From Thermoanaerobaculia bacterium (GTDB lineage Bacteria > Acidobacteriota > Thermoanaerobaculia > Multivoradales > JAHZIX01), in contig JALXFE010000539.1 in the NCBI GenBank assembly GCA_027069135.1, positions 1 through 64,000 on the forward strand: a DNA stretch of 64,000 nt, written 5' to 3'. The notes under the pieces are model-generated. The model was not told the DNA's origin. It did no database searches and was given only the letters and a program-made list of their open reading frames with translations. A program made the position numbers and the translations under genes. Shown here in pieces: positions 28,681 to 64,000 of this stretch (the stretch's first letter is position 1; the number at the start of each line of letters is the position of its first letter).

Positions 28681-31600
28681 ATGTGCTCTGAGGGAGAGAT
28701 GCCCGGAGATTTCGGGTCCTCGACGCTGATCCGGGTACTCCGCGAGCGGGCGAGATCTCAGGCAGATACCACCGTCTACACCTTTTCGGCGGATGGCGAA
28801 TCGATCGGCGGGACCTCTTCCTATCAGAATCTCTACGAGCGGACCTCCGCCCTCGCCCTAGGGCTACGTCGGCAGGGCCTGGAAGGACAGCGGGTGGTTC
28901 TCGCCTTGCCTGCGGGATTCGATTTCGCGTGTGCTTTTCTCGCCTGCCTGATGGCGGGGGTGGTCGCAGTTCCCTTGCCCGCTGCTCCCCGGCGGCGGGG
29001 CCGGCTGGCAGGGGTGGCCGCGGATTGCGCCGCCCAGGCCGTATGGCAGAGGGGGGAACGGGAAAGCCTGGGGCTCCGAGAGCTGACCTGTGTCGGGTTG
29101 TTGGCGGACGCGGCGAAGGGGGGAGACCCAAGGGGCAGCGAGTTGGAGGTCCATCCGGACGAGGTGGCGTTTCTCCAATACACCTCCGGATCCACCGGCC
29201 GGCCGAAGGGAGCCGTGATCACCCACGGAGCCTTGGTTGCAAACCTGGAGATGATCCGTCTCTCGTTCCAGCTGACGCCGAAGGATGTGGTCGGAAGTTG
29301 GCTGCCTCCCTTCCATGACATGGGGTTGGTGGGGGGACTTCTCTCGCCCCTGTGGAGCGGCGTTCCGGCGGTTCTGATGCCCCCCCTCTCGTTCCTTTCC
29401 AAGCCCTACCGTTGGCTGAAAATGATCGAGACCTTCGGTGTCACGGTGAGCGGAGGGCCCGATTTCGCCTACCGGCTCTGCGTCTCGCGAGTCTCCCCGG
29501 AACAGCGACAAGACTTGGATCTGAGCACTTGGCGATTGGCATTCTCCGGTGCCGAACCTATCCGCTCCTCGACCTGCGACGCCTTTCTGCAGGCCTTTTC
29601 GCCCTCCGGCTTGCCGCCTCGCTCCTTTCTCCCCTGCTACGGCCTGGCGGAAGCCACGCTGCTGGTCAGTGCCGGGGAGCCGGGCGCCGCCCAACGAGTG
29701 TTCCCGGGGGAACCGGGTGGTTCTTCGACGGCCGTCAGCTGTGGCGTTCCGGCGTCCGCCGTCCGGATCCGAATCGTCGACCCAAAAACACGGCGACGGA
29801 TCGGGGACGGGGAAGAGGGCGAAGTCTGGGTTGCCTCCCCGGCCCTGGCCGCGGGGTATTGGAATCTGCCGCCCCGGGCCGAGGATCCCTTTGTCTCGAC
29901 CCCCCACTCTTGGGGACCGGAGGAGGAGCCGGCCCGGCGATGGCTTCGTACCGGAGATCTGGGCGTAGAACGGGAGGGGCAGCTCTACATCACCGGCCGG
30001 CTGAAGGATCTGATCATTCTCCGAGGCCGGAACCTCCATCCGGAAGACCTTGAAACCCATGCCTTGGCTGCCCACGAGAGCCTGGCGGAGGCCCAGGTCG
30101 CCGCCTTTGGGGTACCGGCTGGGAGTGAGGACACCGAAGGAGAGTTTGCAGTGGTGGTCCTCTCTCCGGCGCGGATCCGGCGCCGGGAGGTGTCCGGTGC
30201 GGCGGAGGAGATTCGGCGATCCGTCCGACGGAAGCTCGAGGAGCGTCTGCAGGTCGAGGTCAGAGAGGTCCTGTTGGTACGACCGGGTAGCATCCCTCTT
30301 ACCAGCAGCGGCAAGGTGCGTCGGCGGAGAGCTCGGGAGCTCTACTTGCAGGGCGCGTTTGCGAGGCTCGGAGGTCGACGTCCCCGAGCTCCGAAGGTCG
30401 GCGAGCCCCGAGATGCTCTCGCCTGGTTGCAGAAATTCCTTGGGGAAAGGATCGGAGAGGCACCGGAGGCCGTCGACGCCCACCGCACTCTCGGAGACTT
30501 CGGACTCGACTCCATGGGGATGACCCTCGTCCAGCATGGCCTCGAGCGGGAGTTTTCGGTTCGGATCCCTTTGGAAACGCTGCTGGCGGGTTCCTCGCTG
30601 GCGTTTCTCGCAGAGCTCGTCGGTGGGAATCCTCCGGGGGCCGGTCCGTACCGCGTGGAGGTTCCTCGGGAGGAGCCGGAGGGCTGGCGACCGTCCGAGG
30701 GGCAGGAGGCGCTGTATTTTCTCCAACAGGCTCATCCGGAGAGTACGGCCTATCACCTGGCGACGGCATTGCGGATCGAGGCTCCGATCGGCGAGGGCGA
30801 TCTACGGGATGCCCTCGAGGCGGTGGTCCGCCGCCACGATGCTCTGCAGGTGGGCTTTAGAAGCGTCCCTTCCCAGCTGCGACCGAAGCTCGAGAGATTG
30901 TCGCCGGGGCAGGCGGCTTCCCTTCTCGTCGAGGATGCCCGGGAGTGGACCCGACCCCAAGTTCGAAGGGGACTCGCCGAGGCTATCGCGAGACCCTTCG
31001 ATGTCGGGACGGGACCTCTTCTAAGGCTCCATCTCTGGCGGCGCTCCGAAGGGGATGTCCTGCTGCTGGTTCTCCATCACATCGTCGGAGATCTGTGGTC
31101 GGTAGCCCTGCTCATGAGCGAGCTCTCTAAACGGCTGCGACCTGCGCCAGCGGCGCCAGAGCGATCTGTACCAGCACCTCGGAAATTGAACGACGAGCCC
31201 CGCGGGCCCTCCTATTATTCCTGGGTCGAGGCTCAGAAGGACTGGCAGGAGAGTCCGGTCGGGCGCGTGGCGGCAGCCTTTTGGCGGCGGCGCCTGACCC
31301 CCCTGCCGCCCGCCGCGGAGCTGCCGCCGGATCGGCCGCGGAACGGGCGCGGATCCTCTTCCGGCGGGGCTTTTCATACCCCGCTCGGCACCCAGCTCAT
31401 GGCTCGCCTGGAGCCCTTTGCGAGATGTCGGGGGATGACGCCCTATATGGTGCTCATGGCCGCGGTTCAGGTCCTCTTGGCTCGAGGGAGTGGGCTTCAA
31501 CGTTTCGCCGTGGGGACCCTAGCCGCCGAGCGCGAGGGGGCGCCGACGGCTTCCATGGTGGGCTATCTCATCAATCCCCTGGTAGCCGTAGCGGAAGTTC

Positions 31601-34600
31601 CTGCCGGCTCGAGCTTCGAGAGGCTCCTGGTAACGGTCAAGGAAGGGACGCTAGGGATGCTCGCCCACAGCCGGACTCCCTTTAGGAGCCTGGTGACCGA
31701 CCTCGAGCCCCCGAGGGGCGCCGGAGTGAACCCCTTCTTTTCGATTCTCTTCTCCTGGCAGGGGACCGGCATCGCGCTCGAAAACGGGGGACACCGGACT
31801 CCTGGAGGTCTGGTCCTGGGGCGCGGCGATTCCGAGACTTTCTTTGCCGGGGCTGCGGCCCGATCCCTCCGGCTACCGCCTAAGGATGCAGCCTTCGATC
31901 TGAGTCTCCTGGCGGCACCCGACGGCGAAGATCTTCTCCTATGCCTGGAGTACCGGACCGAGCTCTACGATGGGACGTCGATCGCCCGTCTAGCCGGCTG
32001 CCTCTCGAGGCTCCTGGAACAATGTCTGACCAAGCCCCACAGGGATGTAGGAGCGTATTCCCTGCTCTCCCGCGCTCAATCCCAGCAGATCGTCTGGGAA
32101 GCCGGGGATACCGCGCGGCGTTTCGGTGGGGGAACCCTTGTCCAGGAGATTTTTGGCCAGGCCCGGCGCCGTCCTCGAGCGGTCGCCCTGCGGCATGGAT
32201 CCCGCGAGCTGTCTTTCCGGGAACTCGCTACCGGTAGCCTGCGGATCGCGGCGGCTCTTATGGCCCGCGGTATCGGACCCGAGAGCGTCGTGGCCCTGGC
32301 CCTGGAGCGAAGTCCGGAGTGGGTCCTGGGAGCTCTCGGCACTCTGCTGGCTGGGGCCGCGTTTCTGCCTCTCAATCCAAAGGAGCCCGTGGAGCGCTTG
32401 GAGCTGATGGTGGAAGACGGAGCTCCCGATCTGGTGCTCTTCGCGGGGTCCGACCCGGTAGGGAGGAACGGCCTCGCCGGCCTGGATCTTCTCATAGAGC
32501 TGCCGTCGGCAGTGCTGCGGGAACCGCCGCCGGAGGCCCCGGGCCAACTGGCCTACGTCCTGTTTACCTCCGGCTCCACCGGGCGGCCGAAAGGGGCGAT
32601 GAATACCCGCGAGGGTCTCTTCAATCGCTTGTGTTGGATGCAGAGCACCTATCGCCTGGACCCGGAGGACCGGATCCTGCAGAAGACTCCCTTGACCTTC
32701 GATGTTTCCGTGTGGGAGGTCTTCTGGCCTCTGATGGTCGGAGCCCGGTTGGTCTTGGCACCGGAGGGCGCGCATCGGGATCCTCGGCGGCTTGTGGAGC
32801 AGATCGTCTCCGAGGGGATTAGCGTGGTCCACTTCGTGCCGTCCTTGTTGGGGGCGTTTCTGGCGGAGCTAGCGCCGGAGGAAGTGCCCCCGGCACCGTC
32901 CTTGCGCCTGCTGGTGGCCAGCGGCGAGGCCCTCACCGGGATCCTTGCGGGACGCGTGCGCGAGCGCTTCGCCGGGAGTCTGCGATTCGAGAACCTCTAC
33001 GGGCCGACGGAGGCCGCCATCGACGTGACGGCTTACACGGTCCCCATGACCCCGTCCCCCGGCCCGGTACCCCTGGGCCGCCCCGTCGCCAACACGACGG
33101 TGCACGTGCTGGATCGACGGCTGCAGCCCCTTGGGTTGGGAATTCCCGGAGAGATGTTCATCGGTGGCATCCAGCTCGCGAGGGGCTACCGGGGGGATGC
33201 TCGAAGGACCGCCGAAGTGTTTCTCCCGGATCCCTCCGGTGAGATGGGCCGGCGCCTGTATCGGACCGGGGATCTCGGGGCTCGCCGACCGGATGGCACC
33301 CTGATGTTTCTGCGGCGCCGGGACGATCAGATCAAGGTCCACGGGATCCGCATCGAATTGGGGGAGGTGGAGGCGGCGCTCTGCGCCCATCCGCAGATCG
33401 AGGAAGCCGCCGCAGCTCTCGTCCGAGGGCAGGAGGACGATTCCGAGGGGAGGCTACTGGGGGGTGGCTTGCGCTACTTCTCCGGTCCGGGTTCGCCGCA
33501 GGGGCTCGAGGGGGCTGCTCCCAGGTCGAGACTCTTGGCCTATTTTGTCCCGACGAGGCCGGGAGCCGTCGATCGGGGGGAATTGCGCAGGTTCCTGCGC
33601 CGCCGCCTGCCAAAGGCATCGGAGCCGCAGGTCTTGATCCCCATATCTCGGCTTCCGCGCACCGCAAGCGGCAAGGTGGACCGCTCCGAGCTCGTGGCCT
33701 CTTCTGCGCGGCTGCGCACTGCGGAGGCTCCCTACGTGGCGCCTCACTCAGAGCAGGAGAGGGTCCTGGCCCGGGTTCTCGAATCGGTGCTCGAGGTTCC
33801 TCGGGTGGGGTCGGAGGACGATTTTTTCTCTTTGGGAGGGGATTCGATCCTCAGTCTGAAGGTTCGTGCCGACCTAGAAGCGGGAGGATGGGAGCTGGGG
33901 CTCGACGCATTTCTCGAGGAGCGGACGGTGGCACGAATGGCGCGCCTCATGGTGTCCACCGCAAGACGGCTGCCGGATCTCAACCCGGGCCCGCCGGTAG
34001 AAGCCCCGTTCCACGGGCTCCGGGAGGAAGACTTAGCGCTCCTGCCGGAGGGGCTCGACGACGCCTATCCCCTGTCGAGGACCCAGAGCGGGGTCATCTT
34101 TCATAGCCAGTTCGACGCGGCCTCCTCGATGTATCGGGATCTCTTCCTGGCACGCTTCGTCGGATCTCTCGTTCCGAAGCTTCTGAAGAAGGCCCTGCAG
34201 GCGACGGTGGACCGGCATCCCATGCTGCGCACCACCTTCGATCTCGAGAGCTTCTCGGAACCTCTGCAGTTGGTGCATCGGCAAGTGAGCGTGGAGCTGT
34301 TCCACGCAGATCTTTCCGCCCTAGGCCTCAAGACTGCCGACGGTGTACGAGCTATCGAGACATGGATCGAGGGAGAGCTCGCCGTCCCCCTCGATTGGAC
34401 CCGGGCCCCGGTGCCGAGGTTTTCTGCCCTCGGCTCGACGGCGGGGGGGTTCTGGTTCGTGATCAGCTTTTTCGATGCCCTGCTCGACGGTTGGAGCGCC
34501 GCCTCCCTCGCCCAGGAGGTGATCCAGGCCTACGATGCGCTCCTGACCGGGGAGGTCCCGGTCGGGCAAGATCCGCCGATCGGAGGATACCGCCGGTTCG

Positions 34601-37002
34601 TCTCCGCGGAGCTCGATGCCTTGGCTTGCGCCGAGGAGCGAGAGTTCTGGGAAGACCGGTTGGAGACAGCGCCCTCCGGAGAGTGTCTCCCCAAGGAAAA
34701 GGGCCGTACCGCCGACGGCCTCGTGGCCGTTTTGGACACGGAGTTCCCGGAGGCCCTGGTAGCCCGCCTGGAGACGTTGGCCCAGGCCGGTCGGACGGGG
34801 CTCAAGGAAGTGCTCCTCACCGCCCATCTCGTGGTGCTCTCGGCCTTCTGCGGGCGCCGGGCCCTGACCACCGGATTGGAAGTTCACGGCCGATTGGAGA
34901 TTCCCGGCGGGGAACGGGTCCTCGGGATGCACATGAATATCCTGCCGTTTCCGATGACCTTGGGAGGGGGTACCTGGAGGGAATTCCTCGAGAAGGTTCG
35001 GGACCGGGAGAGGGAGTGGCTAGGCCACCGGCGCTTCCCCTTCGTCGAGATGGCCCGGGGACAAGACGGCATGGTCCTGGAGACAGTCTTTAACTTTACC
35101 CATTTCCACGTACTGCGCTCGGTCGCGGCGCTGGAGCGTTTGGAATTGCAGGAGGCCTTCGGGTTCAATCAGACGAGTTTTCCGCTGCGAGCGGACTTCA
35201 ACCGTCATCCTCTGACCGGTCGGCTTCACCTGTCGCTGACCGTTCGCCAGGAGTCTCTGGGGCCCGTCCGGCATCGACGACTGATCGAGAGCTACCGCCG
35301 ATGCTTGGTGGAGTGGACGGCGAATCCACAGGCGAGCTACCTCGAGTTTTCGACCCTGGGGCCGGCGCAACGGCAGCAGATGCTTTGCGAGTGGGGGGGC
35401 GGGGCCGTCCCGCGGCAGGCCGTGGCTTCGTTGCCGGAGAGGTTCTTCGAGCAGGCTTGCCGGACACCGGAGCGGAGGGCTCTCGAGATCCTGGGAGAAT
35501 CCGGCGTCACCTACGAAGAGTTAGCCGGTCGGGTGTGGTCCCTGGCGGCGACCTTGGAGAGGGAAGGTTGCTCGGCCGGGGCCGTGATGGGGATTCTCTC
35601 CGGCCCTTCGGTCGCCTACGTGACCGCGGTGCTCGCGGTGCTCGTGGCGGGCGGGACGTTCCTGCCCTTGGGGGTGAAAGAGCCCCAGCGACGCCTCGTA
35701 GAGCTGATGCACCGAGGGGGGGCACGGCGAATGCTCGTGGAGCCGGGCCGGGAGGTCCCGTCGTCCCTCGAGCGGCGAGCCCTACCGATCGATGAGGGCT
35801 GGGTGGGGGAAAGTGCAGAGTCGAGGCATCGAGGGACTCCCCAAGATATCGCCTATCTGTTCTTTACTTCCGGGTCTACCGGAACGCCGAAGGCGGTGGC
35901 CGTATCCCATGGGGCCTTGGCTCGTCTCCTGACGGCCCTTTCGGAGACCCTGGACGTTCGTCCCGGGGAGCGCTGGTTGGCTTTGACGGAACCCACCTTC
36001 GATATTTCTTTAGTCGAGCTTTTCCTACCCCTTCTCCGAGGTGGGTGCAGCGTCCTGGCGCCGACGGGGATTTCCCGGGAACCGGTTGAGCTTGCCCGGT
36101 TGATCGCCGAGGCCGATCTGGACGCCGTCCAAAGCACGCCGGCGATCTGGCAGTCCCTGGTCGACGTGGGCTTCAGTGGGCCCCGGGGCTTGCGAATTCT
36201 CTGCGGTGGCGAGGCCCTGCCCCCGGACCTGGCGGCGCAGCTTCTGAGCCGCGGCGGGGAGGTGTGGAATCTCTACGGTCCCACCGAGGCGACGGTGTGG
36301 GCTACCGCGAGGCGACTGCGGCCGGCGGGCGCCGTGGACTTGGGTCGCCCCCTACCGGGGGTTCAAATCTACGTCTTGGACGCCGGCCTTCGGCTCCTGG
36401 GGGAGGGCACCGAAGGGGAGCTCTTCATCGCCGGTGGTGCCTTGGCCACCGGGTATTGGGGGGACGCTCCCTCGACGGCGGTGAGCTTTCTTCCGGATCC
36501 CTTCTCCGAGGATTCCGGCCGTCGGATGTACCGGACCGGGGATCGGGCCCGATGGTCAGCGGCCGGCCGGCTGGAGTTCCTCGGCCGTCTCGACGGGCAG
36601 GTCAAGATCCGCGGGATTCGGGTCGAGCCGGGGGAGATCGAGGCGGCTCTCGAGGATCTCGCCACCGTCCGGCGAGCCCTCGTCCTCGCGGAGGAGATCG
36701 CACCGGGACATAGAGGTCTCCTGGCTTATGTCGAGCTCGAGGAGGGGAGCTCGATCTCGCCTCGAGAGATGCGTAGCTTCTTGCAAGGTCGCTTGCCGAG
36801 CTTCTTGATCCCGTCCCGGATTTTTGTGGTACGTTCTTGGCCGTTGACGCACCATGGCAAGGTAGATCGTGGACGATTGCCGAAACCTCTGCGTCCACGT
36901 CCCCCGGAAGAAGTTCTGGTCTCCCTCATCGATCGGTTGGATGCGATGACGGAGGAGGAAGCTCGGTCCCTCCTGGAATTGGGCCCCGAGTCCCAGAATT
37001 GA
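28681..37002 (+). CDS. Lipopeptide NRPS: FAAL-ACP-C-A(Ser)-PCP-C*-A(Gly), no terminal PCP
   Basis: This 2773-residue synthetase opens the assembly line. A fatty-acyl-AMP ligase (about 10-560; LQYTSGSTGRPKG, LPPFHDMGLVGGLL, GRLKDLIILRGRN) activates a fatty acid and loads the ACP (Ser611). C1 (about 670-1110; His799-His800, HHIVGDLWS) should acylate the first amino acid. A1 (about 1150-1665) reads as DVWHVSLID, a serine code; PCP1 uses Ser1722. C2 (about 1790-2230) has Phe1931-Asp1932 where HHxxxDG requires two histidines. A2 (about 2255-2745) has intact core motifs and code DIVQLGLVW, close to glycine. The protein then ends after a short acidic tail with no carrier domain. The ATG at 28681 lacks a good ribosome binding site; the ATG at 28699 is an alternative. 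Confidence 0.93.
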   Translation: MCSEGEMPGDFGSSTLIRVLRERARSQADTTVYTFSADGESIGGTSSYQNLYERTSALALGLRRQGLEGQRVVLALPAGFDFACAFLACLMAGVVAVPLPAAPRRRGRLAGVAADCAAQAVWQRGERESLGLRELTCVGLLADAAKGGDPRGSELEVHPDEVAFLQYTSGSTGRPKGAVITHGALVANLEMIRLSFQLTPKDVVGSWLPPFHDMGLVGGLLSPLWSGVPAVLMPPLSFLSKPYRWLKMIETFGVTVSGGPDFAYRLCVSRVSPEQRQDLDLSTWRLAFSGAEPIRSSTCDAFLQAFSPSGLPPRSFLPCYGLAEATLLVSAGEPGAAQRVFPGEPGGSSTAVSCGVPASAVRIRIVDPKTRRRIGDGEEGEVWVASPALAAGYWNLPPRAEDPFVSTPHSWGPEEEPARRWLRTGDLGVEREGQLYITGRLKDLIILRGRNLHPEDLETHALAAHESLAEAQVAAFGVPAGSEDTEGEFAVVVLSPARIRRREVSGAAEEIRRSVRRKLEERLQVEVREVLLVRPGSIPLTSSGKVRRRRARELYLQGAFARLGGRRPRAPKVGEPRDALAWLQKFLGERIGEAPEAVDAHRTLGDFGLDSMGMTLVQHGLEREFSVRIPLETLLAGSSLAFLAELVGGNPPGAGPYRVEVPREEPEGWRPSEGQEALYFLQQAHPESTAYHLATALRIEAPIGEGDLRDALEAVVRRHDALQVGFRSVPSQLRPKLERLSPGQAASLLVEDAREWTRPQVRRGLAEAIARPFDVGTGPLLRLHLWRRSEGDVLLLVLHHIVGDLWSVALLMSELSKRLRPAPAAPERSVPAPRKLNDEPRGPSYYSWVEAQKDWQESPVGRVAAAFWRRRLTPLPPAAELPPDRPRNGRGSSSGGAFHTPLGTQLMARLEPFARCRGMTPYMVLMAAVQVLLARGSGLQRFAVGTLAAEREGAPTASMVGYLINPLVAVAEVPAGSSFERLLVTVKEGTLGMLAHSRTPFRSLVTDLEPPRGAGVNPFFSILFSWQGTGIALENGGHRTPGGLVLGRGDSETFFAGAAARSLRLPPKDAAFDLSLLAAPDGEDLLLCLEYRTELYDGTSIARLAGCLSRLLEQCLTKPHRDVGAYSLLSRAQSQQIVWEAGDTARRFGGGTLVQEIFGQARRRPRAVALRHGSRELSFRELATGSLRIAAALMARGIGPESVVALALERSPEWVLGALGTLLAGAAFLPLNPKEPVERLELMVEDGAPDLVLFAGSDPVGRNGLAGLDLLIELPSAVLREPPPEAPGQLAYVLFTSGSTGRPKGAMNTREGLFNRLCWMQSTYRLDPEDRILQKTPLTFDVSVWEVFWPLMVGARLVLAPEGAHRDPRRLVEQIVSEGISVVHFVPSLLGAFLAELAPEEVPPAPSLRLLVASGEALTGILAGRVRERFAGSLRFENLYGPTEAAIDVTAYTVPMTPSPGPVPLGRPVANTTVHVLDRRLQPLGLGIPGEMFIGGIQLARGYRGDARRTAEVFLPDPSGEMGRRLYRTGDLGARRPDGTLMFLRRRDDQIKVHGIRIELGEVEAALCAHPQIEEAAAALVRGQEDDSEGRLLGGGLRYFSGPGSPQGLEGAAPRSRLLAYFVPTRPGAVDRGELRRFLRRRLPKASEPQVLIPISRLPRTASGKVDRSELVASSARLRTAEAPYVAPHSEQERVLARVLESVLEVPRVGSEDDFFSLGGDSILSLKVRADLEAGGWELGLDAFLEERTVARMARLMVSTARRLPDLNPGPPVEAPFHGLREEDLALLPEGLDDAYPLSRTQSGVIFHSQFDAASSMYRDLFLARFVGSLVPKLLKKALQATVDRHPMLRTTFDLESFSEPLQLVHRQVSVELFHADLSALGLKTADGVRAIETWIEGELAVPLDWTRAPVPRFSALGSTAGGFWFVISFFDALLDGWSAASLAQEVIQAYDALLTGEVPVGQDPPIGGYRRFVSAELDALACAEEREFWEDRLETAPSGECLPKEKGRTADGLVAVLDTEFPEALVARLETLAQAGRTGLKEVLLTAHLVVLSAFCGRRALTTGLEVHGRLEIPGGERVLGMHMNILPFPMTLGGGTWREFLEKVRDREREWLGHRRFPFVEMARGQDGMVLETVFNFTHFHVLRSVAALERLELQEAFGFNQTSFPLRADFNRHPLTGRLHLSLTVRQESLGPVRHRRLIESYRRCLVEWTANPQASYLEFSTLGPAQRQQMLCEWGGGAVPRQAVASLPERFFEQACRTPERRALEILGESGVTYEELAGRVWSLAATLEREGCSAGAVMGILSGPSVAYVTAVLAVLVAGGTFLPLGVKEPQRRLVELMHRGGARRMLVEPGREVPSSLERRALPIDEGWVGESAESRHRGTPQDIAYLFFTSGSTGTPKAVAVSHGALARLLTALSETLDVRPGERWLALTEPTFDISLVELFLPLLRGGCSVLAPTGISREPVELARLIAEADLDAVQSTPAIWQSLVDVGFSGPRGLRILCGGEALPPDLAAQLLSRGGEVWNLYGPTEATVWATARRLRPAGAVDLGRPLPGVQIYVLDAGLRLLGEGTEGELFIAGGALATGYWGDAPSTAVSFLPDPFSEDSGRRMYRTGDRARWSAAGRLEFLGRLDGQVKIRGIRVEPGEIEAALEDLATVRRALVLAEEIAPGHRGLLAYVELEEGSSISPREMRSFLQGRLPSFLIPSRIFVVRSWPLTHHGKVDRGRLPKPLRPRPPEEVLVSLIDRLDAMTEEEARSLLELGPESQN

Positions 37003-46955: not shown

Positions 46956-46993
46956 GCTCCGCTACCTTGGTTGTGACCCGAGAGGAGAGGGCG

Positions 46994-54622: not shown

Positions 54623-57600
54623 GTCCCGCTCGTCGAGACCTGGAAGAGAAGCGAGAACGCCTCCGGGCCCTGCTGAAGAAGAAGGCGGGAGTTGCTGCCG
54701 GGCCGTTTCCTCTCTCCGTCGGCCAGCAGGCTTTGGCCTACATTCAGGACCTGGCCCCGGAGAGCTCGGCTTACCACGTGGTGTTCTGCGCCCGTTGCCG
54801 TGAACCCTTAGACGGGGAGCGTCTGCGCCGCGCCTTGGAAGAGCTTCTGCAACGCCACGCGGCGCTCCGGACCACCCTCCTCGGCAGGAGCTGCGGCGAG
54901 CGCCGTCAGGAGGTGGGAGCAGCTCCGGCGGTGGAGCTCATCGGCGCCGAGGATCTGGTGGAAGAGAACCTGGAGGAAGCCTTGGGTCAGCACCTGGGCC
55001 AGCACCTGGGCCAGCGTCTGCGCCAGCCCTTCGACCTGGCCGCAGAGGCGCCGATTCGATGGTCGATCTTGCGCCGGGGCCCGGCGGATCACATTCTCTT
55101 CCTTCTCTTCCACCACATCGCCATCGATTTCTGGTCTCTCGGGTTGCTCCTGGAGGAGCTCGATCTCCTCCTGAAGGAGCAACCGCTGCCGGCCCTCGGA
55201 GCTTCCTACCGGCGGTTTGTCTCGCACCAGCGCGATGCCCTGGCCGGGAGCGTCGGGGAACGGTTGCGCCGATACTGGCGGCAGCGATTGGCCGACTTGC
55301 CGCCGGCCTTAGACCTGCCCACGGACCGACCACGGCCGAAGGAGCGATCCTTTGAAGGAGCGACAGCTCTCCTGCGTTTCGAGGCCGCGGAGACGGAGGC
55401 GGCGCGGAAACTGGCTCGTGAATCCGGCGCCACCCTCTTTGCCACGTTGCTGGCGGTGTTGCAGATTCTCCTGCGCCGGTGGTCCGGCCAGCGGGATCTG
55501 CTGGTGGCGACACCGGTAGCGAACCGGGATGGCGGTTTTGAGAAGACCGTGGGCTATTTCGTCCACCAGGTGGCCATCCGCGGAGATCGGGGCCTCGAAG
55601 CTCCTTTCGCCGAGGTGGTGGAACAGGTTCGGGATCGCAGCCTGGAGGCGGTCGAGCATTGTGCGCTGCCCTTTGCGGAGTTGGTGAACCTTCTCGATCT
55701 GCCTCGGAATCCGAGCCGTGCACCGCTGTGTGACGTCGGTTTCGCCCTCGAGACCCCGCGCATGGACCGACGGGGGATTTTTTCTCTGCTCCTGGGGGAT
55801 GTCGGCGCTTCGGTCGAGCTGGGTGGAAAGGCCTGGGAGGCGGTCGATCTACCCCAGCAGGAGGGGCAGCTCGATCTCAACCTCCACCTGCTCGAGGGGG
55901 AAGGGGGCTTAGGCGGTCTGGTGGCCTACGATACGGCTCTCTTCGATGGCTCGACGGTCGAGCGCCTCCTCTCGCAGCTGCGCCGCTTGCTTTCCGGGAT
56001 CGCCGCCCGGCCCCATCTCCCCGTGGGGGACCAGCCGCTGCTCGGCAGGGTCGAGGAGCAGCAGCTGTTGGCCCTCGGAACCGGGGCCGAGGCGTCCCGG
56101 GCGGAAGGCTCCATGGTGGACGCGGTCCTGGAACGTTGCCGCCGACAGCCGGAGGAGGTGGCGGTCGAGGATTGCGCCGGATCGATGACCTATGGAGCCC
56201 TGGAAGCGCGATCCGAAAGACTGGCCCGGCGGCTGCGAGCCCTGGGGGTCGGGCCGGAGGTTCCGGTGGCGGTGCTGGAGGAACCTTGCCCGCAGATGGT
56301 GGTGGCCTGGTTGGCGATCTTGAGATGTGGCGGCGTCTACCTGCCCCTCGATCCCCAGAATCCCCCGGCCCGGTTGCGCGAGATGCTGGGACCACAGACG
56401 ATGGATTCCACATCGGGCGCCCCTTGCCGGATTCTGGTAAGCCGCCGCGAGATTCTGCAGGCTGTTTTCGCAGAGAAGGGGATCCTCGCCGGTCTGGACA
56501 TTCTGGATCCCGAAGAGGATGCGGGCTCCGAGGTCGCCCGAGCGGCTGCCGCGACGACACGCCCTTCTCCGATCCATCCGCTGCAGCTCGTCAACCTAAT
56601 TTTCACCTCCGGCTCCACGGGTCGGCCGAAGGGGGTGGCAATCCCCCATAGAGCCCTCCACAACGTGGTGACCTGGTATGGGAATCTTCTGAATCTGGGG
56701 CCCCGGGACCGGGTTCCCAATACCCTGCGACCGGGATTCGATCCGGCCGGGTTGGAGGTTTGGTCCACCCTCCTGGCCGGCGCGACCCTGGTCGTACCGG
56801 AGGCCGAAGATCGAGCCTCCGGTCAGCGGTTTGCCCGCTGGTTGGCGCGGCAGAGAATCACCGCTGCCACCGTACCGGCACCCCTGGGGGAATCCCTGTT
56901 GGCGGCCCAACTGCCGGACGATCTGCGCTTGCGCCACCTGGTTCTGGGGGGCGAAGCCCTGCGCCGCAGGCCCGGTGCGGATCTCACCTTCGAGGTTCAC
57001 AATCACTACGGCCCGACGGAGGCCACCATCGTCGCCTGCGGTGGCCCGGTGGCCGTGGCCTCGGAGCAGACCGTCCCGGACGTCGGCCGGCCGGTGGACG
57101 GGGTCTCGATCCTCCTCCTCGACGATCGGCTGCAGCCCAAGCCCCGGGGGGGCGTTGGAGAAGTCTTTATCCGAGGCGTCGGTGTCGCGCGGGGATATCT
57201 CGGCCGGCCCGCCCTGACCGCCGCGGCCTTCCTTCCGGATCCTTCAGGCTCCGAGAAGGGGGGACGGATCTACCGCAGCGGCGATCTCGGTCGCTGGGGG
57301 AAGGATGGAAACCTCCAGCTTCTGGGGCGCAAGGACGAGCAGATCAAGATCCGGGGATTTCGGGTCGAGCTCGAAGAGGTTGAGCGAGCTCTCTGCACCC
57401 TGCCGGAAGTGGCCGCCGGGGTCGTGGTCCCGCAAGGAGCCGGCTCCAACCGAGCGATCCTGGTGGCCTACGTGGTCCCTGGAGATTCCCGGAAGAAGCC
57501 CGACCGAGAGCTCCTGGGAGCCACCCTCGCCCAGCATCTTCCCGAGTACATGGTGCCCACCCGATGGGTCTTTCTCGAGGCCTTGCCGCTCACCGCTAAC

Positions 57601-60600
57601 GGCAAGGTGGATCGTCGGGCTCTGGCTGTGCGGAGGATCTCCGGTCCCTCTACGGTCGCCGTCGCTGCCAGCGAGGCCGAACGGAGAATCGCTCGGATCT
57701 GGGGCCAGGTCCTGGGTCTTAAGATCGTCCCGCCCGAAGCGAATTTCTTCGATTTGGGGGGTAACTCGCTTCTGCTGGGAGAGACCCTGAGTCCGTTGGA
57801 GGAATCCCTCGGCCACTCCCTGACGCTGGTCGAGCTGCTGCGCTATCCCACCGTACGGAGTCTGGCCCACCACCTGGAAGGTCCCGCGACTCCGGAGGAC
57901 AGCCGGTCGGAAGGTATTTCCCCAGAGCTCTTCAAGGCCGAGCCCATCGCCGTGATCGGGATGGCCGGAAGATTTCCCGGTGCGGCTTCGATCCGGGAGC
58001 TGTGGGATCTGCTGCGCGACGGAAGGGAGGGATTGCGATCCTTCTCCGAGGACGAGCTTGCGGCCGCCGGAGCTCCCGCTAGAGCCCTCCGCGACGACCG
58101 CTTCGTCGCAGCTGGAGGGATTCTTCAAGATATCGAGGAATTCGACGCGCCGTTTTTCGGCCTCAACCCCCGGGAAGCGGAGATTCTCGACCCCCAACAA
58201 CGGATTTTCCTGGAATGTGCCTGGCAGGCCTTGGAGGATGCCGGCTACGTTCCGGGCGGGGAGGACCGTACCGGGGTCTTTGCCGGGAGCGGCCAGAGTA
58301 CCTATCTGCGTCATCATCTGGAAGGCCACGACGAGCTTTCGAGATCCGTCGGCGACTACCAGCTGACGATCTCCAACGATAAAGACTTCCTCGCTCCGCG
58401 GGTGGCCTACCGGCTGGATCTCAAGGGACCGGCGGTCAATGTTCAGACCGCCTGCTCAACCTCCTTGGTGGCGGTGCATCTGGCCTGTCAAAGCCTGCGT
58501 GCCGGCGAATGCGAGATGGCGCTGGCCGGGGGGGTGACCCTGCGGCTCCCCCAGACTTCCGGATATCGCTACCAGGAAGGCATGATCCTATCTCCGGACG
58601 GCCATTGTCGCCCCTTTTCCGAGGGCGCCGCCGGCACGGTGGGGGGCAACGGTGTCGGGGTCGTGCTCCTCAAGCCCCTGAGCCGCGCCTTGGCAGACGG
58701 GGATCCCATCCACGGGGTGATCCCGGGTTCCGCCATCAACAACGACGGCTCCCTCAAGGCCGGTTTCACGGCTCCCAATGTCGGGGGGCAGGCGGCGGTG
58801 ATTCGTCGGGCGCTGGCGGCGGCGGGAGCGCAGGCCTCGGAGATCGACTACATCGAGGCCCACGGAACGGCGACGGAGCTGGGGGATCCCATCGAGGTGG
58901 CAGCCCTGAATCGGGTGTTGCAGGGTGTGTCGGGACCGGTGGGGCTGGGATCCGTCAAATCCAATCTGGGCCACCTGGACACCGCCGCCGGGGTCACCGG
59001 GCTGATCAAAACCCTGCTGGCTCTCGAGCATGAGGAGATTCCCCGCACGCTGCATTATGAGTCGCCCAATCCCCGCATCGACTTCGGGGAAGGTCCCCTG
59101 GAAGTCGTGGCTCAGAATCGTCCCTGGCCGCGGCGGGAGGGGCGAGCGCGGCGGGCCGGCGTGAGCTCCTTCGGGATCGGCGGCACCAACGCCCACGTGA
59201 TCGTGGAGGAAGCACCGACCCGGGCACCGGCGGCTGTCCCGGGCTCGGCCCCGGCAGCTGGGCCGGAGCGGCCCGCGGAGCTGTGGGTTCTCTCGGGTCG
59301 AACTCCCCGAGCTCTGGATCAGGTCCGGGAAGATCTGGGGGGGTACCTAAGCGAGCATCCCTCGACGTCCCACCGGGCCGTGGCCCATACCCTGCAGGCC
59401 GGTCGGCGTGCCTTCGAAGCTCGGGCTGCGGTGGTCCTTCGTCCGGACGAGGACGGGGGGACAGTTCTGGCGGATGCGGGCCGGGGGCATCGGGGAACAG
59501 CCCGCAACCCGGCGGCACCCCGGATCTACCTCTTCCCTGGCCAGGGAGCCCAATACCCCTCCATGGGGCGGGAGCTCTACGAAGGCTTCGAGGTGTACCG
59601 GCGGCACCTGGACCGGTGCGCGGAAATTCTCGAGCCTCGTCTGGGGTTGGATCTGCGGCACTGGTTGCACCGGGATGTGGCCGACGAGGAAGCCGCGGCC
59701 CGGTTGCGGCACACGGACCTGGCCCAGCCGGCGCTCTTTGCCGTCGCCTCCTCGCTGGTCGAGCTGTGGAGATCCTTGGGGGTCGAAGCCACCGCCATGA
59801 TCGGTCATTCCATCGGCGAATGGGTGGCGGCCTGGGAGAGCGGTGTCCTCGATCTGGAATCGGCCCTCACCTTGGTGGCAGCCCGGGGGCGTTTGATCCA
59901 TGCCCTGCCCCCGGGGGAGATGGTCAGCGTCGCCCTCGGTGAAGAAGAGCTCCGGTCCCTTATCCGGCCCTTCCTTCGGGAAGGGATTTCGCTGGCCGCC
60001 GTCAACGGTCCCCGGCAAGGGGTCGTTTCCGGTTCTGCCCCCGCCATGGCGGGCCTGGTGGAGGCGTTGCAACGAGAGGGGGTAGAGCACCGTCGGCTCC
60101 ACACTTCCCACGCCTTTCACTCCGGGATGATGGACCCCTGTTTGGAGGCCTTCCGGGACGAGGTGCGCAAGGTGGCGCTCAAGGCTCCCCAACGTCCCTT
60201 CGTATCCAACGTCACCGGCCGATGGATACGAGACGAAGAGGCGACAGATGCCGAATATTGGGTCGGGCAATTGCGTTCCACGGTACGTTTTTCAGACGCC
60301 CTGGCGAGCGCCGCCGCCCAGTACGAAGAGGCGACCTTTCTCGAGTGTGGCCCCGGTCGCAGCTTGGCCAGCTTCGTGCGCAGCACGTTGCCCGGGGCTC
60401 GCGCCGTCTCGTGCCTGCCTCATCCCAAGAGCGGAGCCGGAGCCCGGGAGACCTTCCTCGAAGCGATCGGAAGGCTGTGGCTCGAGGGGCAGGAGATCCG
60501 CTGGCAAGGCCTCGACCCGACACCGCCAGCGCGTCTTTCCCTGCCGACCTATCCCTTTCAGAGGGAGCGCTATTGGATCGATCCACCGGAGGCGATTGCC

Positions 60601-62520
60601 CCGGGTCGACCTCGGTCCCCGGCACCTCGGAAGGCCCAGCGGGGGCCCGCTTTCTATCGGCCGTTTTTTAAGACGGCGCCGCCGGCTCACCTCGCCGACG
60701 AGCAGGACGGGACGCGGTGGCTGCTGCTCTCGGATGGCGGATCTTTGGGGGACGAGGTGGCAGCGATCCTTCGGCGGGAGGGGAACGAGGTTCTTCGGGT
60801 CGTTCCGGGCTCGCGATTTCGGCAGGTTTCGGCCCAGGAAGCCGAGCTTCGCCCGGGGTCTCGGGAGGATGTCCTACAACTTCTGGCAGCCTTCGGCACC
60901 TTGGCCCCGGAGCGCATCCTGCATCTTTTTCTGATGGATCCCGGGTACGGGAGTCTCCCCCTCCCGGAGCGCCTCGAGGCGGGATTCTTCAGCCTTCAGG
61001 CCCTGCTCCGGGGGTACCAGGAAACCGGCCGGATCTCTGAGCTCCGCAGTCTGGACGCGGTCCTTCCGGTGGCCGCCGACGCCCTCCTGGGCGAGGGGCT
61101 CGATCCCGCCGCGGCTATGGTGGAGGCCCTGTTGGGCACCGTGGGACAGGAGGTCCCGACCCTCCGCTGCCGCGCCCTGCGATGGGTGCCGAGGGAAGAC
61201 GCTGGGGCGGCATCGGCGTTGCGCCGGGAGCTTGGGGCGGTAGCGTCCCGACAGAGCGTGCTCCTGGCTCGGGGACAGCGCTATCTCGCCGGCTGGGAAA
61301 ATATCGAGCTGTCGGTCCCCAAGGCGCAGGAGGTGCTGAAGCCGGGAGGGACGTATCTCCTGACCGGAGGCTTCGGGGGCATCGCTCTTAAGTTGGCCGA
61401 GCGCTTGGTCGGCCAAGTCCGGGCGCGCCTCGTCCTGGTCTCCCGCCGGCCCTTACCGCCCGAGCCGGCACCGGACGACCCGCTGGCCCAGGTCCGCGAG
61501 TGCATCGAACGTTGGCGGGCTGGCGGGTCGGAGGTCATGACGGCAGCGGCGGACGTCACGGATAGGGCGGCCTTGGCGGCGGTGGTGAGAGCGGCGCGCC
61601 GTCGTTTCGGGCGCCTGGACGGCGTCCTGCATTGCGCTGGGCTGGCCGGGGGCGGGCTGCTCGAAACCCGAGACCGGGAGTCCAGCGGCGAGGTCTTCGC
61701 TCCGAAAGTGAGCGGCACCGAGGCCCTGGCGGAAGCGTTGCGGGATGATCCTCCGGATTTTCTCGTCCTATTCTCTTCGTTGGCCTCGGCGATCCCTCTG
61801 CCCGGGCAGGGGGAGTATGCCGCTGCCAACGCCTTCCTCGACGCCTTCGCTGAAGGCTCGGTGTTGCCCGGGACGGTGTCGGTGCAATGGGATTTTTGGC
61901 AGGGTCGAGGCATGGCCGCGGAGCCGCTGCCGGCCGGCTTCGAAAGCTGGCGCCAAGGTCCGGGATTGACGGCCCAGGAGGGGTGGGACTGCCTCCTCGC
62001 GGCCCTGGGCTCGGGCCTGCGGCGCCTCGCCGTGGCGAGCTTCGACCTGGTGGCCGGGGGTGCCGAGACGCCGCCGCAGCTTCCGGAAAGGCCGGTGACG
62101 CAGCCTTCGGCAGGGTTCTCCGGGCAACATTCGCGGCCGGATCTCTCGACCTCCTGGGCGGCACCTAGAAGCTCCACCGAGGAGGCCTTGGTAGAGATCT
62201 GGTCCGCTCTCTTGGGAATCGAGGCGGTGGGCATTCATGACGATTTCTTCGAGCTCGGCGGCCATTCCCTACTCGGTACCCGGGTTCTTTCCCGGATCGA
62301 GGATTCCTTTGGGGTCCACCTCCCCCTGGCCAAGCTCTTCCAGCTGCCGACGGTGGCGGCCCTGGCAGCGGAGCTGGACGCTCAGCGATCCCGTCCCGGG
62401 CCGGTGGCTGAGGAATCGGCGCCGGTAGACGATGCCGTCGATCTCGACCCGGAGGCCCTCAGCGATGAAGCGGTAGCTCATCTCTTGGCGGCCCTGGCGC
62501 CGGAGGAGGTGGGCGTATGA
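54619..62520 (+). CDS. Hybrid NRPS-PKS: C-A-PCP-KS-AT-KR-carrier
   Basis: A 2633-residue synthetase whose ATG overlaps the previous stop by 4 bp. The C domain (about 20-440) has His165-His166 in HHIAIDFWS. The A domain (about 490-995, Asp708) gives the code DPLAVGHIV, which I cannot assign. PCP uses Ser1050 (LGGNS). The KS (about 1109-1535) has Cys1279 in TACSTS, with EAHGTAT and NLGHLDT. The AT (about 1636-1940) has GHSIGE (Ser1731), RGRL and HAFH, all typical of malonyl-CoA. The KR (about 2010-2460) has TGGFGGIA, LFSSLAS and GQGEYAAAN, so a beta-hydroxyl is predicted; DH and ER are absent. The C-terminal carrier uses Ser2550 in a PCP-like LGGHSL context, followed by a short acidic docking-like tail. 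Confidence 0.93.
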   Translation: MSPARRDLEEKRERLRALLKKKAGVAAGPFPLSVGQQALAYIQDLAPESSAYHVVFCARCREPLDGERLRRALEELLQRHAALRTTLLGRSCGERRQEVGAAPAVELIGAEDLVEENLEEALGQHLGQHLGQRLRQPFDLAAEAPIRWSILRRGPADHILFLLFHHIAIDFWSLGLLLEELDLLLKEQPLPALGASYRRFVSHQRDALAGSVGERLRRYWRQRLADLPPALDLPTDRPRPKERSFEGATALLRFEAAETEAARKLARESGATLFATLLAVLQILLRRWSGQRDLLVATPVANRDGGFEKTVGYFVHQVAIRGDRGLEAPFAEVVEQVRDRSLEAVEHCALPFAELVNLLDLPRNPSRAPLCDVGFALETPRMDRRGIFSLLLGDVGASVELGGKAWEAVDLPQQEGQLDLNLHLLEGEGGLGGLVAYDTALFDGSTVERLLSQLRRLLSGIAARPHLPVGDQPLLGRVEEQQLLALGTGAEASRAEGSMVDAVLERCRRQPEEVAVEDCAGSMTYGALEARSERLARRLRALGVGPEVPVAVLEEPCPQMVVAWLAILRCGGVYLPLDPQNPPARLREMLGPQTMDSTSGAPCRILVSRREILQAVFAEKGILAGLDILDPEEDAGSEVARAAAATTRPSPIHPLQLVNLIFTSGSTGRPKGVAIPHRALHNVVTWYGNLLNLGPRDRVPNTLRPGFDPAGLEVWSTLLAGATLVVPEAEDRASGQRFARWLARQRITAATVPAPLGESLLAAQLPDDLRLRHLVLGGEALRRRPGADLTFEVHNHYGPTEATIVACGGPVAVASEQTVPDVGRPVDGVSILLLDDRLQPKPRGGVGEVFIRGVGVARGYLGRPALTAAAFLPDPSGSEKGGRIYRSGDLGRWGKDGNLQLLGRKDEQIKIRGFRVELEEVERALCTLPEVAAGVVVPQGAGSNRAILVAYVVPGDSRKKPDRELLGATLAQHLPEYMVPTRWVFLEALPLTANGKVDRRALAVRRISGPSTVAVAASEAERRIARIWGQVLGLKIVPPEANFFDLGGNSLLLGETLSPLEESLGHSLTLVELLRYPTVRSLAHHLEGPATPEDSRSEGISPELFKAEPIAVIGMAGRFPGAASIRELWDLLRDGREGLRSFSEDELAAAGAPARALRDDRFVAAGGILQDIEEFDAPFFGLNPREAEILDPQQRIFLECAWQALEDAGYVPGGEDRTGVFAGSGQSTYLRHHLEGHDELSRSVGDYQLTISNDKDFLAPRVAYRLDLKGPAVNVQTACSTSLVAVHLACQSLRAGECEMALAGGVTLRLPQTSGYRYQEGMILSPDGHCRPFSEGAAGTVGGNGVGVVLLKPLSRALADGDPIHGVIPGSAINNDGSLKAGFTAPNVGGQAAVIRRALAAAGAQASEIDYIEAHGTATELGDPIEVAALNRVLQGVSGPVGLGSVKSNLGHLDTAAGVTGLIKTLLALEHEEIPRTLHYESPNPRIDFGEGPLEVVAQNRPWPRREGRARRAGVSSFGIGGTNAHVIVEEAPTRAPAAVPGSAPAAGPERPAELWVLSGRTPRALDQVREDLGGYLSEHPSTSHRAVAHTLQAGRRAFEARAAVVLRPDEDGGTVLADAGRGHRGTARNPAAPRIYLFPGQGAQYPSMGRELYEGFEVYRRHLDRCAEILEPRLGLDLRHWLHRDVADEEAAARLRHTDLAQPALFAVASSLVELWRSLGVEATAMIGHSIGEWVAAWESGVLDLESALTLVAARGRLIHALPPGEMVSVALGEEELRSLIRPFLREGISLAAVNGPRQGVVSGSAPAMAGLVEALQREGVEHRRLHTSHAFHSGMMDPCLEAFRDEVRKVALKAPQRPFVSNVTGRWIRDEEATDAEYWVGQLRSTVRFSDALASAAAQYEEATFLECGPGRSLASFVRSTLPGARAVSCLPHPKSGAGARETFLEAIGRLWLEGQEIRWQGLDPTPPARLSLPTYPFQRERYWIDPPEAIAPGRPRSPAPRKAQRGPAFYRPFFKTAPPAHLADEQDGTRWLLLSDGGSLGDEVAAILRREGNEVLRVVPGSRFRQVSAQEAELRPGSREDVLQLLAAFGTLAPERILHLFLMDPGYGSLPLPERLEAGFFSLQALLRGYQETGRISELRSLDAVLPVAADALLGEGLDPAAAMVEALLGTVGQEVPTLRCRALRWVPREDAGAASALRRELGAVASRQSVLLARGQRYLAGWENIELSVPKAQEVLKPGGTYLLTGGFGGIALKLAERLVGQVRARLVLVSRRPLPPEPAPDDPLAQVRECIERWRAGGSEVMTAAADVTDRAALAAVVRAARRRFGRLDGVLHCAGLAGGGLLETRDRESSGEVFAPKVSGTEALAEALRDDPPDFLVLFSSLASAIPLPGQGEYAAANAFLDAFAEGSVLPGTVSVQWDFWQGRGMAAEPLPAGFESWRQGPGLTAQEGWDCLLAALGSGLRRLAVASFDLVAGGAETPPQLPERPVTQPSAGFSGQHSRPDLSTSWAAPRSSTEEALVEIWSALLGIEAVGIHDDFFELGGHSLLGTRVLSRIEDSFGVHLPLAKLFQLPTVAALAAELDAQRSRPGPVAEESAPVDDAVDLDPEALSDEAVAHLLAALAPEEVGV
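54988..55023 (+). repeat. In-frame 12-bp tandem repeat inside a C domain
   Basis: CAGCACCTGGGC occurs twice exactly (54988-54999, 55000-55011), followed by a diverged third copy to 55023. It encodes QHLG-QHLG-QRLR within a helix of the condensation domain, ahead of its active site. Confidence 0.7.
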
Positions 62521-64000
62521 CCTCCACGGCAGACCCCGCGAAGACTCCGGGAAGCACCGCCGAGCGCCAGCGGCTGGCGAGGCTGCTGGCGGATCGGGAA
62601 CGGGCCCCCCGTCTCTATCCCCTCTCGTCGTCCCAGCAGCGGTTGTGGTTCCTGGATCGTCTGGAAGGAACCCGTGGCTACAGCTTGCATCAGGCCCTGC
62701 GGCTGCGGGGGGATCTCGTCCTTCGTGGGCTCGAAGGGGCCGTCGTAGGCTTGCTCCGGCGGCACGGGGCCCTGCGTACGGTCATCGTCGAAGCCGATGG
62801 CGAGCCCTACCAGGCGGTGTTACCGGCCGAGACGTTTGAGGGAGCTCGGAGGGTCTTTTTCCGGGTGGATCTGGAGGCAGCCCGAGAGGCAGCCCCCGGC
62901 CTGCTGGAAAAGGTTTTGAGAAAACCCTTCTCCCTGGCTCGGGGGCCCCTCTTTCGAGTCTTGCTCCTGGCTCTCGGCGGCGAGGAGCATATCCTCCTGA
63001 TCCACCTCCACCACATCGTGGCGGACGGCGCCTCGATGCAGATCCTGGCGCAGGATCTGGCCGAGCTCTACCGAGCCGAGATCGGCGGCGAGGCTCCCCG
63101 GCTAGAGCCCCTCGAGAGCGATTACGGTGCCTACAGCCGGTGGCAGCAGCGGCGATTGGCCGGGACCGAAGCCGAGCGCCTCGTCCGGTTTTGGCGCCGG
63201 ACCCTCGAGGGAGCCCCACCACAGCTGGAGTTGCCGACGGATAAGCCCCGGCCGGCCAAACTCAGTGGTGCTGGGGATCTCCTACCGTTTCACGTCCGCC
63301 CGGAGCTCTTGGCTGCGATGGAGGGGCGCGCCCGTCAGGAAGGCTGTACGCCGTTTCAGGTCTGGATGACCGCCTTCCTGGCGTTCCTTCTACGCCTCAC
63401 CGATCGCCGGGATCTGGTGGTCGGAATCCCCGTTGGGGGAAGGACCCGCTCGCAGCTCGAAGGGTTGGTGGGTTTTTTCATCAACACCCTCGTCCTGCGG
63501 TGCCGCGTATCGCCGGGAGATTCTTTTCTCGACACCCTCCGCCGGGTGGTGGAGCGTAGCGTCGAGGCCTTCGATCATCAGGAGCTACCCTTCGACCGAT
63601 TGGTGGAGGCCGTGCAACCGCCTCGGGATGCGCGCTTCGCACCGGTGGTGCAGGTTTCCTTTCAAGTGCAGAGCCTGCCGGTTGAGGTGCCGGCCCTGGT
63701 CGGCCTCGAGACCGAGAGGATAGAGCTCGATCCGGGGACCGCGACCCTGGATCTGGCGGTGTACCTGGAGGGCTCCGGGGCGAGCTCCGGATCGGGATCC
63801 CAGGGCTACGTGCAGAGCCATCGGGACCTCTTCGACCCTGGGACGGTAGAGCGGTGGAGCCGCCAATTTCTCACCCTGGCCGACGGGGCGGCACGGCGAC
63901 CCGCGACGACTTTGGAAGCCCTGAGTCTCTTCGGCGCGGCGGAGATCGACCAGTTGCGAGGAGAGGCCTCGCCCTCGCCCTCGACCCTCGGGCCCTCGGC
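62517..64000 (+). CDS. NRPS, N-terminal condensation domain (3' end outside window)
   Basis: The frame opens with an ATG that overlaps the previous stop by 4 bp and stays open to the right edge, so at least 494 residues are encoded and the gene continues. The visible part is a complete or near-complete condensation domain (about 40-470): YPLSSSQQRLWFLDRL (C1), HGALRTVIV, a canonical active site HHIVADG (His165-His166, Asp170), and GRTRSQLEGLVGFFINTLVLR. The SSQQRLWF opening and the IPVGGRTR core resemble LCL-type domains. It should accept the chain from the KS-AT-KR module just upstream. An adenylation domain is expected next but is not in view. No thioesterase or export gene has yet appeared, so the cluster must extend further. 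Confidence 0.92.
   Translation, partial: MTSTADPAKTPGSTAERQRLARLLADRERAPRLYPLSSSQQRLWFLDRLEGTRGYSLHQALRLRGDLVLRGLEGAVVGLLRRHGALRTVIVEADGEPYQAVLPAETFEGARRVFFRVDLEAAREAAPGLLEKVLRKPFSLARGPLFRVLLLALGGEEHILLIHLHHIVADGASMQILAQDLAELYRAEIGGEAPRLEPLESDYGAYSRWQQRRLAGTEAERLVRFWRRTLEGAPPQLELPTDKPRPAKLSGAGDLLPFHVRPELLAAMEGRARQEGCTPFQVWMTAFLAFLLRLTDRRDLVVGIPVGGRTRSQLEGLVGFFINTLVLRCRVSPGDSFLDTLRRVVERSVEAFDHQELPFDRLVEAVQPPRDARFAPVVQVSFQVQSLPVEVPALVGLETERIELDPGTATLDLAVYLEGSGASSGSGSQGYVQSHRDLFDPGTVERWSRQFLTLADGAARRPATTLEALSLFGAAEIDQLRGEASPSPSTLGPS

Follow-up and report, generated by a model that had tools for sequence, protein, structure and literature searches.

Why does one run of biosynthetic genes carry two separate fatty-acid loading units, and what becomes of the chains that start on them? 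The question arises from the stretch of DNA analysed here (64,000 nucleotides; the window), which comprises the first 64 kb of contig C539 (98,814 bases) in the draft genome of a Thermoanaerobaculia bacterium (G000; 7.17 Mb, 626 contigs). In this stretch, a nonribosomal peptide synthetase/polyketide synthase (NRPS/PKS) cluster of six co-directional genes, here called A to F, spans contig positions 28681-76283 on the + strand, and both gene A and gene D begin with a fatty acyl-AMP ligase (FAAL) followed by an acyl carrier protein (ACP). The intergenic gaps from A to F are 369, -4, 38, -4 and -4 nt. The best single reading of the sequence, which we hold with about even confidence, is that of one pathway in which two lipid-primed lines share one exit and may yield a joined, two-tailed lipopeptide. 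Using Pfam and our own profiles, we called the condensation (C), adenylation (A), epimerization (E), peptidyl carrier (PCP), thioesterase (TE) and PKS domains of the six genes as follows:

Gene A, 28681 to 37002, + strand: FAAL1-ACP-C-A1 (Ser)-PCP1-C (dead)-A2 (Gly-like code, no PCP)
Gene B, 37372 to 38904, + strand: a free-standing C domain, motif SHLVADGW, of the post-epimerization C clade
Gene C, 38901 to 46955, + strand: C (dead, interface-like)-A3 (Ser)-PCP3-E-C-A4 (perhaps basic)-PCP4, the end of line 1, with no release domain and a 16-aa tail
Gene D, 46994 to 54622, + strand: FAAL2-ACP-KS-AT-DH-KR-ACP, the start of line 2
Gene E, 54619 to 62520, + strand: C-A5-PCP-KS-AT-KR-ACP, its C domain (motif HHIAIDFWS) in the acyl-ACP-accepting clade
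Gene F, 62517 to 64000 in the window and to 76283 on the contig, + strand: C-A6-PCP-C-A7 (Ser)-PCP-KS-AT-KR-ACP-C-[A remnant, no carrier]-TE

The two loading units themselves are:

28741 to 30630, + strand: FAAL1 (28741-30327) and its ACP (30412-30630, GLDS), amino acids 21-650 of the protein at 28681
47042 to 49009, + strand: FAAL2 (47042-48691) and its ACP (48788-49009, GLGS), amino acids 17-672 of the protein at 46994

A preliminary description of this DNA had reported two complete FAAL-ACP units in one locus, and we found both to be intact, on the same + strand and about 18.3 kb apart. For FAAL1 as well as FAAL2, the top PDB matches were solved FAALs (7r7e/f/g, then 3kxw, FadD32, FadD23 and others), and the relation to 7r7g_A extended over the full length (E = 2.6e-117 and 1.3e-141, respectively). 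The ATP-binding core motifs, the A10 lysine and the serines of the partner ACPs were intact for both in the three genomes examined. Both units are FAALs by these sequence features, with predicted fatty-acid adenylation and loading of ACP rather than CoA. The same intact motifs disfavour the suggestion that one FAAL might be inactive, and FAAL decay was ruled out. Because FAAL1 and FAAL2 are only 39-40% identical to each other, a recent tandem copy was also excluded.

The layout is not confined to this genome. An identical six-gene order was found in G003, a genome of the same genus (contig C47, 23740-74822). In G002, which belongs to another genus, genes A to E are found on contig C50, with the last part of F on C76; in G001, from the genus of G002 and 82% complete, the end of A, gene B and the start of C lie on C376 and the C-TE end on C628. 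Protein identity of G003 and G002 to G000 was 38-49% in the main aligned segments, and between G000 and G003 FAAL2 was 61% and FAAL1 45% identical. Several oddities were nevertheless kept in all four genomes, namely an A2 domain without a carrier, the dead C domain before it, the free-standing gene B, the dead C domain opening protein C and a C-TE end without a carrier. One difference among the relatives was that E of G002 has no detectable KR. Because two other genomes show this arrangement of six genes together with its oddities, we consider it exceedingly improbable that the locus reflects chance neighbours or an assembly artefact; the fragmented state of the draft would invite the latter suspicion, which is refuted by independent assemblies, since the layout was recovered both from a different genome, on a contig of 204 kb, and from a second genus. 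Conservation of the entire gene order likewise disfavours the assignment of one FAAL to a separate neighbouring cluster. A separate FAAL-started cluster does occur in G003 (C47, 123396-174264), about 50 kb away; its FAAL is separated from the closer member of the pair by about 98 kb.

We then surveyed 59 genomes of the order, 36 of which yielded a total of 131 matches to a FAAL profile (E up to 1e-100), with at most 23 candidates scored per genome and many contigs so short that pairs may be missed. Among the matches listed, the only same-contig FAAL pairs within 60 kb were those on C539, on C47 of G003, on C50 of G002 and on contig C95 of a further genome (G420), the last consisting of two ORFs (open reading frames) of stand-alone size. 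G000 itself is rich in NRPS/PKS and FAAL-started clusters, with 81 AMP-binding matches, partial ones counted, in 7.2 Mb.

If both FAALs are functional, does the second one open a new chain? The domain that receives its product is:

49064 to 50380, + strand: KS of gene D, in the FAAL-ACP-fed KS clade

We built trees of KS and C domains taken from NRPS/PKS contigs, mostly of G000, G002 and G003, and labelled each domain by its feeder using motif rules. A first rule recognized 10 FAAL-fed C domains and a wider one, fixed before tree building, recognized 17. In the tree of 26 KS domains, all five of the FAAL-ACP-fed ones, including the three D orthologs, fell into one clade (support 1.0); outside it were 10 domains fed by amino-acid PCPs, one fed by a carrier of unknown type, nine N-terminal domains and one PKS-fed domain. 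In the tree of 148 C domains, one clade (0.99) held 15 of the 17 FAAL-fed domains, none of the 64 fed by amino-acid PCPs and none of six less certain ones, together with one PKS-fed C domain. Inside this acyl-ACP clade lie the opening C domains of A and E, three orthologs of each. From these groupings it follows that FAAL2 probably feeds D, that D feeds E and that the peptidyl chain on PCP4 fits neither entrance. The prediction that the second FAAL opens a new chain is thus supported, in line with the earlier statement that a chain carried by the PCP at the end of gene C (46955) does not pass into the FAAL2 unit. The AT of D (50669-51604) carries VAAH and lacks HAFH in G000 and G003, so its extender may differ; HAFH is present in G002.

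The same trees bear on the possibility that line 1 and protein D are alternative starters which both feed protein E, with one chain per molecule. Two FAAL entries do stand upstream of a shared E-F line, and two starters for one line are reportedly a known idea: puwainaphycin/minutissamide is said to be made by a FAAL-primed PKS/NRPS in which two alternative starters are proposed to feed one line. However, in three genomes the C domain of E groups with acceptors of acyl-ACP and not with those of peptidyl-PCP. This placement is not conclusive, yet it disfavours that domain as an entry for line 1, and the C domain types found here speak against a system of the puwainaphycin/minutissamide kind. 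We therefore regard alternative starters as improbable.

What, then, does line 1 make, and how far can its chain go? Four domains of gene A are needed here:

30664 to 32109, + strand: acyl-accepting C domain, HHIVGDLWS, clustering with C domains that follow a FAAL-ACP
33751 to 33963, + strand: PCP1, of the GGDSI type, as in front of epimerization domains
34045 to 35400, + strand: C domain lacking the catalytic His (FFDALLDG), dead in all four genomes
35434 to 36873, + strand: A2, with a Gly-like code and intact motifs, no carrier after it and a stop at 37002

The motif of the dead C domain reads FFDALLDG, FFDALLDG, FLDAVLDG and FVDALLDG in the four genomes. Neither Pfam nor our own profiles revealed a PCP after A2, and reading the gap by eye in all three forward frames gave none either. 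The specificity codes were DVWHVSLIDK for A1, DVWHVSLVDK for A3, DVWHISLVDK for A7, DIVQLGLVWK for A2, DAEDVGTVVK for A4 and DTENIGAVTK for A6; that of A5 varies, being DPLTVGHIVK in G000 and DAWFLGHVVK in G003 and G002. With PheA numbering, we take A1, A3 and A7 to select Ser, A2 Gly and the DAWFLGHVVK form of A5 a Leu-like residue; A4 and A6 are perhaps, with low confidence, basic. The two Ser codes predicted earlier were thus recovered in A1 and A3, and the third, A7, lies past the window edge.

Line 1 contains three C domains with catalytic motifs (the first of A, gene B and the last of C) and three amino-acid PCPs, which would give one C domain per bond, provided that B serves the step onto PCP3. 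The properties of PCP1 and B fit each other in this respect. When epimerization domains were called by motif, GGDS occurred in all 12 PCPs that precede one, compared with 16 of 108 other PCPs. A 25-member clade of C domains includes all nine post-epimerization C domains, and among PCPs with another C domain after them, that C domain belonged to this clade for 8 of 12 of the GGDS form, compared with 0 of 58 others; three of those eight are the cluster's own orthologs, and without them the figure is five of nine. Gene B falls in the same clade, in keeping with the GGDSI type of PCP1, and the second His and the Asp of its motif are kept in all four genomes.

The dead C domain that opens protein C belongs to a six-member clade (support 1.0) consisting entirely of N-terminal dead C domains. 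For all six members, the preceding gene ends in, or is, a C domain keeping at least the second His and the Asp, and G001 provides a seventh case. The converse is not universal, however, because the C domain after some genes that close with a C-type domain has an intact motif or is too short for a verdict. In the three clade members from other clusters, a gene for a TauD-family oxygenase lies between the two subunits (3/3), an arrangement which resembles interface-domain systems as outlined in the account of antiSMASH 8 (citing Reitz 2019). The domain opening protein C may likewise be interface-like: it lacks HHxxxDG, stands before an A domain and shares a clade with those three, but no TauD match was found at this locus in any of the four genomes. 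Elsewhere in G000, dead-C-first subunits with a TauD-family oxygenase gene before them (C334, 20001-40000, and C157) resemble interface-domain hydroxylation systems.

In none of the three genomes in which PCP4 is present does a release domain come after it. The tail past PCP4 measures only 16, 16 and 19 aa, compared with 49, 98 and 84 aa for D and 43, 63 and 54 aa for E. We do not press this as proof that docking is absent, because other carrier-ended proteins also have short tails: among 37 carrier-ended ORFs, two end with the DNA, one has a shorter tail (11 aa) and four have tails of 21-25 aa. The PCP4 tail is thus at the short end of the range and no outlier.

If line 1 has no exit of its own, where does its chain leave? 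Rightward extension, for which the preliminary description had called together with a search for a thioesterase or a terminal C domain, proved informative on both counts: gene F, cut by the window end, closes with a thioesterase at contig position 76283, and this is preceded by an extra C domain with neither an A domain nor a carrier of its own. The terminal C domain keeps HHxxxDG in all four genomes, although it stands outside any normal C-A-PCP module, and the Ser and His motifs of the TE are conserved to the same extent. By eye, the linker between them looks like decayed A-domain sequence, and it is poorly conserved. A carrier hidden in this linker was rejected, as none was detected by Pfam at E up to 10 in G000, G003 and G001, or by our own profile in G002.

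The unusual parts of the cluster were also searched for elsewhere. With gene B as the query, the 59 order genomes (at most 26 candidates scored in each; E up to 1e-85) yielded their four best matches in the four members of this family, where the ORFs measure about 520-550 aa; every other match listed sits in an ORF of at least 947 aa. A stand-alone C gene of a different type is present on contig C73 of G000. When the C-[A remnant]-TE end was searched in 396 genomes of the phylum (four candidates each), a match beginning at the C end was obtained for G000 and G003 alone, and the remaining C-TE matches listed start at model position 145 or later, a region covering the last part of the linker plus the TE.

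For a C domain that retains its motif but lacks a following carrier, and that stands beside a line without an exit, the simplest use would be to join the two chains. We propose, tentatively and with somewhat less than even confidence, a convergent NRPS/PKS with two complete FAAL-primed lines, in which the terminal C domain would splice the peptidyl chain of PCP4 to the ACP-bound chain before release by the TE. FAAL1 would load a fatty acid, which the first C domain of A would transfer to Ser1. As the C domain before A3 is dead, the free-standing B would hand the chain to Ser3 on PCP3; the epimerization domain would act on PCP3, and the last C domain of protein C would add residue 4 on PCP4, where the chain would halt. 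The product of line 1 on its carrier would be acyl-Ser-Ser-X. In line 2, FAAL2 would load a second fatty acid, and the PKS/NRPS modules would build this into a beta-hydroxyacyl chain carried by the final ACP. At that point, the terminal C domain of F would couple the line 1 chain on PCP4 to a hydroxyl or amine of the line 2 chain, through an ester or amide, while the line 2 chain remains on its ACP; the TE would act on that ACP and release or cyclise a two-tailed lipopeptide. The architecture, its conservation, the intact or dead motifs and the KS and C groupings are observed, whereas the coupling of the two chains and its direction, the kind of bond, the role given to B and the final product are inferred.

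Several observations weigh against this proposal. The carrier-less, Gly-coding A2 is left unexplained by it, and an ACP-C-TE order without a carrier after the C domain is itself unusual. The terminal C domain groups with ordinary LCL domains, as do two other C domains fed by a PKS ACP, and because such PKS-ACP-fed domains are scattered in the tree, phylogeny leaves its donor undecided; the domain may have no activity or may take a free amine as its substrate. A structure model of the linker-TE stretch had a mean pLDDT of 37.7 from two sequences and was too poor to be used. Moreover, a FAAL-ACP-KS protein was not found in G001 (82% complete), in which the inspected FAAL contigs lead to C domains or are fragments. 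Finally, no sequence sign of docking between PCP4 and the terminal C domain was found. This last point, and the fact that line 1 both begins and ends on units of its own (a starter and a final carrier), would be expected if the cluster made two separate lipopeptides, line 1 being freed by hydrolysis or by a thioesterase acting in trans and line 2 by its own TE, with the terminal C domain idle or using a small free amine. However, the missing release domain of line 1 in three genomes and the catalytic motif retained by the extra C domain in four argue against such an arrangement, as does the observation that two markers, one for each line, were seen in this family only: gene B's type (4 of 59 order genomes) and the C-[A remnant]-TE end, these being what was searched, in place of the whole of A-C or D-E. 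We consider two separate products rather unlikely. The sequence leaves the choice between joined chains and two products, and we lean to joining.

Is there a precedent for two lipid starts in one system? Icosalide of Burkholderia gladioli is described as a two-tailed lipopeptide arising from two chain initiations on one NRPS (PMC8949500). The present locus resembles it, as far as that account goes, in having two independent lipid initiation units in one system and Ser residues, and the two-tailed product proposed here would be like icosalide. In contrast to icosalide, for which the two starter C domains lie in modules 1 and 3 of one NRPS, two FAAL-ACP units occur here on separate proteins, with PKS modules and a carrier-less terminal C-TE. 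For zeamine of Serratia plymuthica, two lines in one cluster are proposed to be joined by a C domain, Zmn19, and prodrug trimming is also proposed (PMC3547906). Our locus likewise has two lines in one cluster and a spare, motif-intact C domain outside a normal module; in the zeamine system, however, one line resembles a polyunsaturated fatty acid synthase (FAS/PKS), the joining C domain is free-standing and, in the excerpted account, no FAAL pair is described (PMC3547906). Two FAALs in one gene cluster are also known from the phenolic glycolipid (PGL) locus of Mycobacterium tuberculosis, in which FAAL22 and FAAL29 act in sequence on one phenolphthiocerol chain made by PKSs and for which the excerpts of a FAAL review name no NRPS lines to be joined (PMC11837247). 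The same review mentions nocuolin, for which one FAAL-ACP is used twice (PMC11837247).

In the open-licence literature searched (titles and abstract openings), we found no system with two FAALs in one lipopeptide cluster. The earlier remark that this layout was not known therefore stands for the cluster as a whole and gives way in its parts, since double initiation is known from icosalide and the PGL locus of M. tuberculosis has two FAALs. What is new, within the literature searched, is the twin FAAL-ACP layout with a carrier-less C-TE exit.

Might both tails persist in the final product? The genes around the cluster are relevant here. Upstream, genes for a histidine-kinase-like protein, a GGDEF-EAL protein and an MCP are common to G000 and G003, indicating that the cluster occupies the same place in both. 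Downstream, the two genomes share a 449-aa protein, which by eye has the look of an outer-membrane barrel and has no Pfam or NCBIfam match, an ADOP-family permease, an acylase and a TPR protein. Some 19 kb beyond the cluster, a further adenylate-forming ORF (contig C539, 95786-98814) is truncated by the end of the contig. The acylase is:

Contig C539, 80317 to 83313: acylase of the penicillin-amidase family (PF01804), less than 5 kb from the cluster end

PvdQ removes an acyl tail during the maturation of pyoverdine. All four genomes have a PF01804 acylase no more than 5 kb from where the cluster ends, the copies of the relatives being 50-58% identical to that of G000, and one tail may accordingly be trimmed later. 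One acyl chain would then be transient, the exported product losing it to the acylase, which is compatible with joined lines. The enzyme has, by eye, a signal-like N-terminus, and Ser325 in GSNWW; the ADOP permease precedes it in G000 and has relatives in G003 and G002. However, the four genomes contain 15 PF01804 matches, so that the family is not special to this locus, and the PDB matches were penicillin, cephalosporin and glutaryl acylases and related proteins, with no chain named PvdQ among the matches listed. A transient tail is thus possible, though doubtful.

If the two lines are indeed joined, the cluster would represent a natural merging of separately lipid-primed lines through a C domain able to work without its own carrier. 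Such a step would be useful for engineering two-tailed lipopeptides, and would break the reading of clusters of this kind as one line with one chain. As two genera retain the layout at low identity, it provides a testable system. Even if two products are made, it is unusual for a single conserved operon to combine two lipid starts with one exit.

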